The notes beneath the pieces were generated by a model that was not told the origin of the DNA, did no database searches, and was given only the letters and a program-made list of their open reading frames with translations. Shown here in pieces: positions 7,257 to 34,920 of a stretch of 37,346 bases of DNA. This stretch comes from Alphaproteobacteria bacterium (GTDB lineage: Bacteria > Pseudomonadota > Alphaproteobacteria > DSM-16000 > Inquilinaceae). Each line of letters opens with the position of its first letter. Within the stretch, counting starts at the first letter, position 1. The translations under genes and the position numbers were made by a program. Where the stretch lies: positions 1 to 37,346 of the forward strand of contig JAAAOG010000026.1 of NCBI GenBank assembly GCA_009909005.1, given 5' to 3'.

Positions 7257-8090
7257 ATGGCCGATCCGTTGCCTTTAGGCGCGGGTGGATGGAGCGTCCG
7301 CGCCGGCGACCTGGAGGTGCGCCTTTCGGAAGACGCGGCCGAAGTGGCGGCCGCGCAGTCCCTGCGATACCGGATCTTTTACGAGGAGCTGGCGGCCCGG
7401 CCGACGCCGGAAATGGCGCGCGACCGCCGCGACTTCGATGATTTCGACCGGTGTGCCGACCACCTTCTGGTGATCGACCACGCCCGCGGTCATGGTGCCG
7501 CCGGTGTCGTGGGGACCTATCGCCTGATCCGCCGGGCCGCGGCGGCAGAGATGGGCTCCTTCTACACAGCGCATGAATACGATATCGGGCCGATCCTCGA
7601 CTATCCGGGCGAAATCCTGGAACTCGGGCGGTCCTGCGTCGGTCCCGACCACCGGACCGGCCAGGTCATGCAACTGCTCTGGCGCGGCATCGCGACCTAT
7701 GTCTTCGAACACGACATAAAGCTGATGTTCGGCTGTGCCAGCCTGCACGGCGTGGACCTCACGGAACTCGCTCTGCCGCTTTCGTATTTGTATCATCACC
7801 ATCTGGCGCCTCCGGCGCTGCGACCGACGGCGCTTGCGGAGCGGCGGAGCGAAATGGACCTGATCCCCGCCCAGCAGATCGATGTCAGGCGAGCCGTCGC
7901 CGCCTTGCCGCCCCTGGTCAAGGGCTATCTGCGGCTCGGCGGGAATGTCGGCGATGGCGCGGTGGTCGACCACCAGTTCCACACGACCGATGTCTGCGTC
8001 GTTGTCAAAACGGATCTGGTAACCGACAAGTACTACAAGCATTATGAGCGGCAACGGGGGCGGCCTGACATGGCCTTGACCTCCTCTTGA
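7257..8090 (+). CDS. olsB: Ornithine N-acyltransferase OlsB-like (GNAT fold)
   Basis: This 277-residue protein carries the signatures of the OlsB family: LRYRIFYEEL near residues 34-43, a FDDFDRCADHLLVID segment, VVGTYRLIRR, and ELGRSCVGPDHRTGQVMQLLW. OlsB transfers a 3-hydroxyacyl group from acyl carrier protein to the alpha-amino group of ornithine, the first step of ornithine lipid synthesis. ATG 7257 is chosen because upstream in-frame sequence has no family similarity. Its TGA overlaps the TTG start of an acyltransferase gene, forming an olsB-olsA pair as known in rhizobia. The fold is shared with acyl-homoserine lactone synthases, but the adjacent partner gene favours the lipid role. 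Confidence 0.82.
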   Translation: MADPLPLGAGGWSVRAGDLEVRLSEDAAEVAAAQSLRYRIFYEELAARPTPEMARDRRDFDDFDRCADHLLVIDHARGHGAAGVVGTYRLIRRAAAAEMGSFYTAHEYDIGPILDYPGEILELGRSCVGPDHRTGQVMQLLWRGIATYVFEHDIKLMFGCASLHGVDLTELALPLSYLYHHHLAPPALRPTALAERRSEMDLIPAQQIDVRRAVAALPPLVKGYLRLGGNVGDGAVVDHQFHTTDVCVVVKTDLVTDKYYKHYERQRGRPDMALTSS

Positions 8091-9043
8091 TCAAGGGCAC
8101 GCAGGTGGCGCCTGCACTGGATATTGCGCCGCGAGACGAGCGGCGGGCGGCCATGGGGTCGAATGTTCTGGCCGTACGGCGGCTAGTGTTGTATGTGCTG
8201 CTGACGATTGTGAGCCTGCCGGTCCAGGCTGCCTTGCTCTTGCTCCGCTCGCCTTGGCGCGCCCGGTTTCCCGTATTCTTTCACAAATCGTGCCTTCGGA
8301 TACTCGGCATCGAGCTGGTGGTTCACGGTACCCTGTGCCGGGACCGGCCCGCCTTGTTCGTGGCCAATCACTCCTCCTATCTCGATATTATGGTTCTCGG
8401 CAGCCTCGTCTCCGGCAGCTTCATCGCCAAGTCCGAGGTGAAGGACTGGCCGTTCTTCGGCCTGCTGGCGCGCATGCAGCGCACCGTTTTCGTCGACCGG
8501 AAGCAGGCCTCCGTGGCGCTGCACCGCTCCTCGATCCAGACTCGCCTGGAAGCCGGCGAGCAGCTGATCCTGTTTCCGGAGGGCACGTCGAGCGACGGCA
8601 ATCGGACCTTGCCGTTCAAGAGTGCGCTGTTCTCCGTTGCCCAGCTTCGCATCGGCGATGCGCCGCTGCCGGTCCAGCCGGTATCGGTCAGCTGTACGGC
8701 GCTCGATGGGATTCCCCTCGGGCGCTGGCTGCGCCCGGTCTATGCCTGGTATGGAGATATGGATCTGCTGCCCCATATCTGGAACGTCGCCAAAGCAGGC
8801 AAGCTGTCGGTGTCGGTCGTCCTGCATCCCGTCGCGACAATCGACGAGAACGGCTCGCGCAAGGCGCTGGCTCAGGCCTGCTGGGAGGCGGTTGCGGACG
8901 GTGTGGCCCGGGCCAACTCCGGCCGGCTGGGGGCGCGGGCCAGACGGCGCGGCTGGCAGGCGAAGTGGATGGAGGACAGACGCCGCCAGAGGCCGGCGGG
9001 CGGCGGAGAGCCGGGTGCGACAGACGGCCAGGGCCGGGACTAG
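8087..9043 (+). CDS. olsA: 1-acyl-glycerol-3-phosphate/lyso-ornithine lipid acyltransferase (PlsC family, OlsA-like)
   Basis: The 318-residue membrane-associated protein belongs to the PlsC acyltransferase family. A hydrophobic segment at about residues 30-50 is followed by the catalytic block NHSSYLD (NHx4D-type) and the substrate block FPEGTSSDGN. Next to olsB, the likely role is O-acylation of lyso-ornithine lipid. A general lysophosphatidic acid acyltransferase role is the alternative. TTG 8087 overlaps the olsB stop in a TTGA arrangement and is the most economical start; ATG 8153 is an alternative that would shorten the protein by 22 residues. Three bases separate it from miaB. Confidence 0.8.
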   Translation: MIKGTQVAPALDIAPRDERRAAMGSNVLAVRRLVLYVLLTIVSLPVQAALLLLRSPWRARFPVFFHKSCLRILGIELVVHGTLCRDRPALFVANHSSYLDIMVLGSLVSGSFIAKSEVKDWPFFGLLARMQRTVFVDRKQASVALHRSSIQTRLEAGEQLILFPEGTSSDGNRTLPFKSALFSVAQLRIGDAPLPVQPVSVSCTALDGIPLGRWLRPVYAWYGDMDLLPHIWNVAKAGKLSVSVVLHPVATIDENGSRKALAQACWEAVADGVARANSGRLGARARRRGWQAKWMEDRRRQRPAGGGEPGATDGQGRD

Positions 9044-30407: not shown

Positions 30408-30498
30408 GGAGCGTCGGCCTCCGGCCGACGGCGGCGGCGGAACGCCCCTATGGAGCGTCGGCCTCCGGCCGACGTCGGCGGCGGGACGCCGCCGCTCC
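30408..30498 (-). repeat. Two copies of the 47-bp palindromic element between mftA and the SDR gene
   Basis: A first, right-half-diverged copy starts at 30408 and a second, intact copy covers 30452-30498. The intact copy matches the core of the tandem array at 34022-34635. Each can fold as two hairpins closed by GGAGC/GCTCC. They lie in the transcribed gap between mftA and the dehydrogenase gene. Confidence 0.85.
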
Positions 30499-32354: not shown

Positions 32355-33121
32355 GACGCCACCTTTCGCGGCGCGGTCGCCGCACCGTCCAGCCTCTGCC
32401 GGCCGCTGGCGGTCTGAGCCGCCAGATAGCGCCGGCCGCGGCCGGCCTCGGCACCGGTGGGATTGCCGAGGATCCCGGTCGGGGTGACCGCGCGCAGGCC
32501 CTCGCGTTCCAGGGCCGCGATCAGGCCCTCGTCATCGCTGCACATGCCTGGAACGGCGCGGTGCATCCGCACCAGGTCGGGCCGCAAAGCGAGCATTTCC
32601 GAGGTCTCGCCTTCGCCGGCATGCAGGCCCAGCGCGGAGGCGGGAACGCTTTCGGCGGCGGCGATCGCCAGGACCGCCTCCGACACCGCCGCGCCGCCGC
32701 CCAGGACCGCCACCTCGAGCGCCGGCAGCTCGTCTGCCAGCCGGGCGGCCGCGCGATCGAGTGCCGCGGCATTGCCGCCATGCGCGGACAGCAGCACCAG
32801 CCGGGCGATGCCCCATCCGGCCAGGCGGCGGGCGCAGTCGACGATCACCGCCGCCAGGGTGTCGTGATCGAGGCCGATCAGGCCGGCAAATCCGCTATGC
32901 TCGTCGGAGCAGCCGAAGGGCAGGGCCGGCGCCACCAGCGTGCCGGGCAGACATCCGGCCAGTGCCTCGGCCAGGGCCGTCGCCCGGACCGTGTCGGTCG
33001 ACAGCGGCAGATGCGGCCCGTGCTGCTCGGTGGCACCCAGCGGCAGAATGACCGTCGTCGCCCCGGCGGCCACGGCGCCGGCGACATCCGGCCAGGTCAT
33101 GGTCTCCAGCACCCGGCTCAT
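32351..33121 (-). CDS. mftE: Mycofactocin creatininase-family peptidase MftE
   Basis: The 256-residue protein belongs to the creatininase amidohydrolase family. The metal-binding motifs are ILPLGATEQHGPHLPLSTDT (Glu, His, Asp), LLSAHGGNAAAL, and GLHAGEGETSEML. In mycofactocin synthesis MftE cleaves the modified MftA just before the last two residues, releasing AHDP. It overlaps mftF on one side and etfB on the other by four bases each, so the cofactor pathway and the flavoprotein genes are one transcriptional unit. Sequence context makes MftE the best name over other creatininase homologues. Confidence 0.9.
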   Translation of the reverse strand: MSRVLETMTWPDVAGAVAAGATTVILPLGATEQHGPHLPLSTDTVRATALAEALAGCLPGTLVAPALPFGCSDEHSGFAGLIGLDHDTLAAVIVDCARRLAGWGIARLVLLSAHGGNAAALDRAAARLADELPALEVAVLGGGAAVSEAVLAIAAAESVPASALGLHAGEGETSEMLALRPDLVRMHRAVPGMCSDDEGLIAALEREGLRAVTPTGILGNPTGAEAGRGRRYLAAQTASGRQRLDGAATAPRKVAS

Positions 33122-33987
33122 GCGGCGCTTTCCATAAAGCCGTTCTCGTCGAGGAAATCGAGAATGGCGTCCGCCATCTCTTCCGGCGTGCCGTCGATCA
33201 CCCGCCCGGCCTTGTGGGTCATACCGGCCGAGAGGATCTGCACGGCGCGCTCCTCCGGCGACAGGGCGCTATCGGGAATGAAGATCTCACGCGGCCGCGG
33301 ATAAGGCGGCATGGCCGCCTGCACCGTCGCCGAGGGGAAGCGCAAATCCATGGACGACAGGCCGAGATCGGGCAGATGGCGCACCGGGATGGCGGCCCGC
33401 TTGGCGGCCATGACGCCCGGCAGGCCGGCATAGCGCAGGGCCGCAGTGCCGGGTTCGACCGCCAGGACAGCCGGCAGCACGACGTCGCCCTCCGATCGGG
33501 CGCCGCGGGCCAGCCGCCGCTGGACCTGGACCCGGGCCGCCTGGACGTCGAACGCCAGGACGTCGGTGACGACCGGCCAGCCGAGATACTCGGCAAGCAG
33601 CGCCGGCACCTCGCCCGAGCCGCCGGCAAGGCTGCGGCTGCCGCAGAGCACCAGGTCCGGCACGCCGTCCATGGCCAGTGCCGCGGCGAGCAGCCGCGCG
33701 GTCACCGCCGGGCGCGTCGACGCGCTTCCTTCGTCCCAGAGCCGCAGCACCTCGTCGGCCCCGACCGCCAGGGCGTCGCGGAGCACCCCGTCGGCCTCGG
33801 GCGGCCCGACGGTCAGAGCCGCGATGCTGTCGCCGGGTCCGCGCAGTTGCAGCGCCAGTTCCAGCGCGCAGGCATCGGCCGGGTTGAGGATGTGCAAGGT
33901 GCGGCTGAAGTCGACGCCCCCGGTGATCGGGTCGACCGAGACGGTCTCCGGATCGGGCAGGCGGGCGAGGCAGACGGCGATACGCAT
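33118..33987 (-). CDS. Electron transfer flavoprotein beta subunit
   Basis: The 289-residue protein is an EtfB/FixA-type subunit. It begins MRIAVCLARLPDPETVSVDP and includes LHILNPADACALELALQL and VVLPAVLAVEPGTAALRYAG, where the family binds AMP or FAD, followed by KRAAIPVRHL. It forms a heterodimer with EtfA and carries electrons from flavin dehydrogenases to ETF:quinone oxidoreductase. It overlaps mftE at its stop, and its start is separated from fixX by the ten-copy repeat array, while the alpha subunit lies further upstream behind fixC. ATG 33987 is chosen because the upstream in-frame reading enters the repeats. Confidence 0.9.
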   Translation of the reverse strand: MRIAVCLARLPDPETVSVDPITGGVDFSRTLHILNPADACALELALQLRGPGDSIAALTVGPPEADGVLRDALAVGADEVLRLWDEGSASTRPAVTARLLAAALAMDGVPDLVLCGSRSLAGGSGEVPALLAEYLGWPVVTDVLAFDVQAARVQVQRRLARGARSEGDVVLPAVLAVEPGTAALRYAGLPGVMAAKRAAIPVRHLPDLGLSSMDLRFPSATVQAAMPPYPRPREIFIPDSALSPEERAVQILSAGMTHKAGRVIDGTPEEMADAILDFLDENGFMESAA

Positions 33988-34021
33988 GGGGATCTCCCGG
34001 GACCCTTGGTCAAGTCGTTTT

Positions 34022-34635
34022 GGAGCGTCGGCCTCCGGCCGACATCGGCGGCGGGACGCCGCCGCTCCTGATCGGCGCGTCATGGGAGCGTCGGCCTCCG
34101 GCCGACATCGGCGGCGGGACGGCGTCGCTCCTTATCGGCGCGTCATGGGAGCGTCGGCCTCCGGCCGACGTCGGCGGCGGGACGCCGCCGCTCCTTATCG
34201 GCGCGTCATGGGAGCGTCGGCCTCCAGCCAACGTCGGCGGCGGGACGCCGCCGCTCCTTATCGGCGCGTCATGGGAGCGTCGGCCTCCAGCCGACGTCGG
34301 CGGCGGGACGCCGCCGCTCCTTATCGGCGCGTCATGGGAGCGTCGGCCTCCGGCCGACGTCGGCGGCGGGACGCCGCCGCTCCTTATCGGCGCGTCATGG
34401 GAGCGTCGGCCGCCGGCCGACGTCGGCGGCGGGACGCCGCCGCTCCTTATCGGCGCGTCATGGGAGCGTCGGCCTCCGGCCGACGTCGGCGGCGGGACGC
34501 CGCCGCTCCTTATCGGCGCGTCATGGGAGCGTCGGCCTCCGGCCGACGTCAGCGGCGGGACGCCGCCGCTCCTTATCGGGGCGTCATGGGAGCGTCGGCC
34601 TCCAGCCGACGTCGGCGGCGGGACGCCGCCGCTCC
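34022..34635 (-). repeat. Ten-copy tandem array of a 63-bp unit with a foldable 47-bp core
   Basis: Ten units start at 34022, 34085, 34148, 34211, 34274, 34337, 34400, 34463, 34526 and 34589, exactly 63 bases apart. Each has a 47-bp core (GGAGC, then GTCGGCC-TCC-GGCCGAC, then GTC, then GGCGGCG-GGA-CGCCGCC, then GCTCC) and a 16-bp linker ending near CGCGTCATG. The core can fold as a three-way junction: two 7-bp hairpins closed by a 5-bp stem. Units 3, 6 and 8 are identical; others differ by one to several bases, mostly at positions in the first loop and stem (CCTCCAGCC for CCTCCGGCC). The array fills the gap between fixX and etfB and has no gene of its own. Confidence 0.97.
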
Positions 34636-34641
34636 CGGTAA

Positions 34642-34920
34642 TTACGACTCCCGAAAAGTGACGCCGAAGCCGCCCTTGGGATAGGACCATGAGAGTGCGC
34701 CCTCCTCGGCACAGACATAGAAACAGGCGCCGCATTCGAAGCAGTTCTCGTAGTTGAAGAGCACGGTCCCGTCGTCCAGGCCGACGAAGAGGCCGGCCGG
34801 ACAGACGGTGATGCAGGACTTGACCGCACAGCTCCGGCATTTCTCGCCGTCGACGACGATATGCGGCGTGTCGTCGACCCGGAACCGGGCGGTCCGCATC
34901 TTCTCTTCATGCGTGGTCAT
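34642..34920 (-). CDS. fixX: FixX-like ferredoxin of the ETF:quinone oxidoreductase
   Basis: The 92-residue ferredoxin-like protein holds two cysteine motifs: C28-x2-C31-x4-C36-x3-C40-Pro (CRSCAVKSCITVCP) and C60-x2-C63-x2-C66-x3-C70 (CFECGACFYVC). FixX proteins work with FixC as the iron-sulfur part of ETF:quinone oxidoreductase. The usual family has one cluster site and a degenerate second; here all eight cysteines are present, so two [4Fe-4S] clusters are possible. Its ATG overlaps the fixC stop (TAATG), so translational coupling is likely. The repeat array follows six bases after its stop. Confidence 0.9.
   Translation of the reverse strand: MTTHEEKMRTARFRVDDTPHIVVDGEKCRSCAVKSCITVCPAGLFVGLDDGTVLFNYENCFECGACFYVCAEEGALSWSYPKGGFGVTFRES

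Follow-up and report, generated by a model that had tools for sequence, protein, structure and literature searches.

Why should a strictly periodic array of structured repeats occupy the gap between two genes of a compact operon? The locus lies in a 37,346-nucleotide stretch of DNA from an alphaproteobacterium of the family Inquilinaceae (contig JAAAOG010000026.1 of assembly GCA_009909005.1; the window in what follows). The sequence-only reading of this window had described a phased 10 x 63-bp array with scattered point differences, each unit carrying two 7-bp hairpins and a 5-bp closing stem that fold on both DNA strands, placed between fixX and etfB, and had considered that it could tune the expression of EtfB and the mft genes. 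We are confident that the array is a modular BIME, i.e. that a REPIN was inserted in the fixX-etfB gap and then multiplied head to tail.

Anatomy of the array and its place in the operon

The description given by the sequence-only reading was confirmed. TRF reported one array in the window (34022-34635; period 63, 9.7 copies, 97% matches, no indels), and the listing of its units gave ten starts, each exactly 63 bp after the previous one, with about a dozen scattered substitutions as the differences among the ten units. The period is made up of a 47-bp REPIN and a locus-specific 16-bp inter-REPIN spacer (TTATCGGCGCGTCATG; 34069-34084 in the first module), which has the same sequence in 7 of the 9 intervals; the last of the ten tandem modules consists of the core without spacer. 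The consensus core (GGAGC-GTCGGCC-TCC-GGCCGAC-GTC-GGCGGCG-GGA-CGCCGCC-GCTCC) is formed by two head-outward REPs (GGAG[C/G], 7-bp hairpin, TCC loop) about 3 nt apart, and hence is a REPIN. One half-unit has a GTCGGC-type arm (GGAGC GTCGGCC TCC GGCCGAC; 34022-34043, plus strand) and the other, inverted, a GGCGGC-type arm (GGAGC GGCGGCG TCC CGCCGCC; 34047-34068, minus strand), both recurring every 63 bp, while the closing 5-bp stem is mere complementarity between the two inverted GGAG(C) tags. Both hairpins are perfect in 5 of the 10 units. Folded as single-stranded DNA, the consensus core gave a three-way junction on both strands (-22.9 and -23.1 kcal/mol; z = -4.1 and -3.7). Folded as RNA, the minus strand (the operon sense) gave the complete three-way junction and the plus strand two hairpins, with the closing stem absent.

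The neighbours of the array are those that had been named: a fixX-like ferredoxin gene upstream (34642-34920, minus strand) and a mycofactocin-associated etfB downstream (33118-33987, minus strand). The gene order is etfA, fixC, fixX, array, etfB, mftE and mftF, and the position of the array divides etfA from etfB. Only 6 nt (34636-34641, minus strand) separate the fixX stop codon (34642-34644) from the first transcribed hairpin, and a 34-nt leader with a ribosome-binding-like GGGAG motif (33988-34021, minus strand) leads from the array to the etfB start. The distance from the fixX stop to the etfB start amounts to 654 nt here, as compared with 11, 11 and 16 nt in the same-family relatives G012, G004 and G002, respectively. 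The empty sites in these three relatives thus mark the array as an insertion specific to this lineage, made in a compact operon; judging from this comparison of sequences, it entered the fixX-etfB gap in the lineage of the source genome. The window holds a second small BIME of the same REP family (30408-30498; 1.5 REPINs with a period of 44 bp), which is situated in the mft region, 14 nt upstream of a mycofactocin-coupled SDR gene.

A genome-wide family of REPINs and its RAYT

The element is by no means confined to this operon. A BLAST search with the array against its own genome returned 97 matches, on both strands and on many contigs, and a half-unit pattern (allowing at most 2 mismatches) found 232 REPs over the whole genome, as against 4 for a reversed-pattern control; the genome-wide count of the core that the sequence-only reading had proposed as a check was thus positive. 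Gene contexts outside the window were taken from 41 fetched genome stretches by means of a simple home-made codon-usage gene finder. Within these stretches, 108 of 218 neighbouring half-unit pairs were head-outward (mostly 3-5 nt apart), and 98 head-outward dimers had a gap of 0-8 nt, i.e. the inverted pairs that characterize REPINs. The REP stems covary: both sides had changed in 33 cells, as compared with 9.7 +/- 2.3 in shuffled data (none of 500 shuffles reached this value), and all four Watson-Crick pairs (G-C, C-G, A-T and T-A) are seen at the position that closes the loop. Conservation sets in sharply at GGAG, with positions -1 to -10 being variable, which identifies the conserved 5' tetranucleotide of the REPs. 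Nearly all clusters (47 of 48) are extragenic, at a median of 26.5 nt from stop codons (many of them close), and few (2 of 28) lie between divergent genes, which is the usual REP pattern. The repeats are thus short stem-loops, present in high copy number and mainly extragenic, as expected of REPs and REPINs. Arrays elsewhere in the genome have periods of 32-149 bp and unrelated spacers, the spacers within one array being nearly identical; such head-to-tail modules of inverted REPs with locus-specific inter-REP segments are what defines BIMEs.

Three further loci illustrate the range of the family. On contig G000:C1, a 1026-aa ORF with a DNA methylase domain (PF01555) harbours an in-frame tandem of five REPIN units (L015, 4481-4755; period 57 bp, 19 codons), which adds a repeated GAAASRRRDRPEADPPGGY-like peptide to the product; the frame would survive a change in copy number. 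On G000:C64 (L026, 3190-3397; G000:C64:4689-4896), six single REPs of the same orientation follow each other at a 32-bp period, the last one being paired into a REPIN, a run that amounts to tandem growth of half-units only. A REPIN on G000:C92 (L017, 5919-5964) has very different arms (GCGGGCC / GCGGACG) with unchanged tags, loops and layout, and represents either a second type of REP or a subfamily that has diverged.

A search for a RAYT, likewise proposed beforehand, also succeeded. The gene is located on contig C190 (L012, 8037-8650, minus strand), scores 89.8 bits with NCBIfam NF047646 (cut-off 80), passes PF01797 as well, and retains the HUH (HVH) and Tyr (NYIE) motifs; the only relative of solved structure was TnpA-REP (4er8, E 6.5e-8). 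It is bordered on both sides by inverted copies of the array's REPs (7895-8029 and 8640-8807). The frame has no clear ATG and continues open through the upstream REPs (L012, 8640-8723); as the gene lies at a contig end and a clear ATG start is absent, its expression is not assured. The genome has three Y1_Tnp genes, and no GGAG REPs were found in the fetched stretches near the two others, which were therefore rejected as cognate enzymes. Another RAYT-like Y1 transposase (L014, G000:C128:42045-42359; DHMH motif, 180 aa), which has no GGAG REPs in its vicinity, scores just below the Pfam cut-off for Y1_Tnp.

The link between repeats and enzyme extends to other genomes. A RAYT from a Roseiarcus MAG is 58-61% identical to the C190 RAYT and directly adjoined by the same GGCGGC-type REP. 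The tmRNA of the source genome places it in the Alphaproteobacteria. RAYT matches at E 1e-25 or better were restricted, among 289 genomes of the class, to the source genome and three others; the same-family genomes G003, G004 and G008 gave no match at this threshold. REP number was correlated with the RAYT (220 in the own genome, 91 in the Roseiarcus MAG and 0-1 in seven same-family genomes, G003, G004 and G008 among them), and a RAYT homologue was present in 7 of 8 genomes chosen solely for carrying the REP pattern. The flanks of 30 RAYT loci contained 46 GGAG-tagged hairpins (0.05 expected per shuffle), together with 12 tagged GTAG and 8 tagged GTGG. GGAG-tagged REPs flank RAYTs in at least Alphaproteobacteria, Thiohalocapsa and Opitutaceae, the taxonomic spread of the pattern being a lower bound. 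The idea that the GGAG tag marks a RAYT clade of single origin was unsupported, since on the RAYT tree the loci with GGAG are intermingled with those with GTAG/GTGG.

Tandem growth, unlike arms and the 5' tag

We propose that in this lineage one REPIN was inserted between fixX and etfB, and that it was probably mobilised by the C190 RAYT. REPINs are non-autonomous elements, and the C190 enzyme, as a HUH-type Y1 transposase, would bind hairpin and tag of the single-stranded REP and make its cut next to them. The REPIN, along with 16 bp of adjoining DNA, would then have multiplied head to tail through recombination or replication slippage. We infer that this growth was local because every array has its own period and its own spacer. 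A single insertion followed by local tandem growth corresponds to what has been described for BIMEs (Nunvar et al. PMC2817692; Bertels and Rainey PMC3116915; Di Nocera et al. PMC3733652).

The number of units calls for some caution. Among the 48 repeat clusters examined, 16 were no more than 150 bp away from a contig end, where about 1.6% would be expected per site, and arrays with the same spacer were shared by two contigs in two cases (C121/C184 and C134/C79), so that array copy numbers are to be read as lower bounds and the exact number is uncertain. These same observations speak for the reading in which the array is real and its length of ten is an artefact of the draft assembly; set against them, several units have private or locally shared substitutions, so the length is at least partly resolved, and we regard the artefact as possible, though rather unlikely. 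Given the locus-specific periods and the arrays split between contigs, it is plausible that the arrays are hotspots of copy-number change.

The REPINs obey a strict rule as to their arms. Of 98 close dimers, 96 join a GTCGGC-type arm to a GGCGGC-type arm, and such heterodimers are the only dimers in 33 of the 34 clusters that bear any. When the distinct perfect dimers were folded, 29 of 31 gave two separate hairpins, and the dimers all collapsed into one 22-bp hairpin once their arms were made identical; the cloverleaf shape is thus due to the mismatch between the two arms and would persist because unlike arms fold separately, not as one long hairpin. Across genomes, arms were unlike in 84 of 84 dimers with gaps of at most 10 nt (a small sample, in which array copies are not independent), and identical-arm dimers (12, all from Verrucomicrobia) occurred only at gaps above 10 nt. 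Heterodimers are found in many families, and protection from SbcCD-type palindrome removal has been proposed as the reason (Di Nocera et al., PMC3733652); the gap dependence of arm identity fits this idea.

One may go further and take the GGAG-tagged, strictly heterodimeric and 3-nt-linked REPINs, together with their RAYTs, for a distinct guide class, in which the tag would have shifted along with the cleavage site, the whole cloverleaf would be moved, and the mismatch of the arms would be selected against long palindromes. We put this forward tentatively and doubt it more than we believe it. The replacement of GT[A/G]G by GGAG is a mild variant that may have been described elsewhere before; our literature search for the GGAG tag together with a RAYT yielded nothing relevant. 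A degenerate GT[A/G]G tag just 5' of GGAG was considered and rejected, as those bases are unconserved.

Possible consequences for the operon and kinship with known repeats

Once transcribed, the array would form a row of stable hairpins beginning 6 nt past the fixX stop codon. Such a row would probably shield the upstream mRNA end, and it may hold up ribosomes as they terminate or uncouple the translation of etfB; the insertion also abolishes the close spacing of fixX and etfB. REPs whose distance to a stop codon is below 16 nt have been reported to lower translation in E. coli (work cited in PMC12306157), and the first hairpin falls within this distance. The position, the stable fold of the transcribed strand and the widening of the gap (relative to the 11-16 nt of the relatives) would all suit an array selected to set the ratio of EtfA, FixC and FixX to EtfB, MftE and MftF, be it by 3'-end protection, pausing or ribosome stalling. 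We consider such selection improbable, for the three relatives lack the array at this site, the same repeats stand behind dozens of unrelated genes, and no terminator-like site was found within the array (neither a Rho-independent terminator nor a promoter). The sequence-only reading had itself taken absence of the array from relatives as evidence against its regulatory proposal, and by that standard a conserved regulatory role is disfavoured. EtfA and EtfB are expected in equal amounts. Because the array separates their genes, strong polarity on etfB is unlikely, and the ribosome-binding-like GGGAG of etfB also counts against it. Hence, we expect any effect on expression to be a modest by-product of the insertion and not an evolved switch.

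Other readings fare far worse. An operon-specific structured RNA or cis-regulatory element (riboswitch, attenuator or protein-binding array) would account for the three-way-junction fold that is conserved in every unit, but is hardly credible for an element that has no Rfam family match and recurs at dozens of other loci alongside a cognate RAYT. Direct repeats at constant spacing might equally recall a CRISPR-like, IS-end or minisatellite array unconnected with RAYTs, a notion that can be set aside for repeats dispersed on both strands and flanking a RAYT gene (a CRISPR array being rejected outright, as its spacers should be unique and here the spacer is identical in 7 of 9 intervals).

The fixX-etfB array is therefore a BIME of RAYT-linked REPINs, an element of a well-known kind, and its only unusual points are the GGAG start tag and the strictly mismatched two-arm design. 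With the modular BIMEs of Stenotrophomonas maltophilia and the y-z mosaics of E. coli (PMC2817692, PMC8266576) it shares the head-to-tail arrangement of inverted-REP modules, the two alternating REP types, and inter-REP segments that vary by cluster and thus denote independent origins; it differs from them in its GGAG tag and in the distance of about 3 nt between partners, which yields a compact cloverleaf module. The REPINs of Pseudomonas fluorescens SBW25 (PMC3116915) are likewise mobile inverted REP doublets with a nearby RAYT that has matching REPs, and form tandem clusters that take in flanking DNA, yet each of them forms a single long hairpin with a longer spacer, and the largest of their clusters comprises four REPINs, as opposed to the two hairpins and ten or more units seen here.

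The GTAG and CGTC superfamilies (Di Nocera et al. 2013, PMC3733652) offer the 5'-tagged hairpin, head-outward dimers, heterodimers, tandem clusters with flanking DNA and occasional in-frame intragenic copies. The present REPs match neither consensus: in place of GTAG, GTGG and similar tags, GGAG is found in the own copies and in most of the RAYT-flanking REPs found, and an unpaired CGTC tag is absent. They go with a RAYT, which is present and flanked by them, whereas CGTC repeats do not. Similarity to the TnpA-REP subclasses (PMC6006769) extends to the HUH-Tyr transposase, to a WQ...D-R...R region that resembles (by eye) that of subclasses 2.5/2.7, and to short perfect hairpins with 1 nt between tag and stem; the GGAG tag is unlisted there. 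The tag of the REPs in PMC2817692, PMC3733652, PMC6006769 and PMC8266576 is GT[A/G]G, unlike the GGAG of the present family.

What appeared to be a structure specific to one operon thus belongs to a population of REPINs that is spread over the genome of an alphaproteobacterium and has an identifiable transposase. The case bears on why REP dimers often join unlike partners, which is to be expected if long palindromes are purged, and the difference between GGAG and GT[A/G]G offers a clean case for asking whether the 5' tag guides the choice of the cleavage site.
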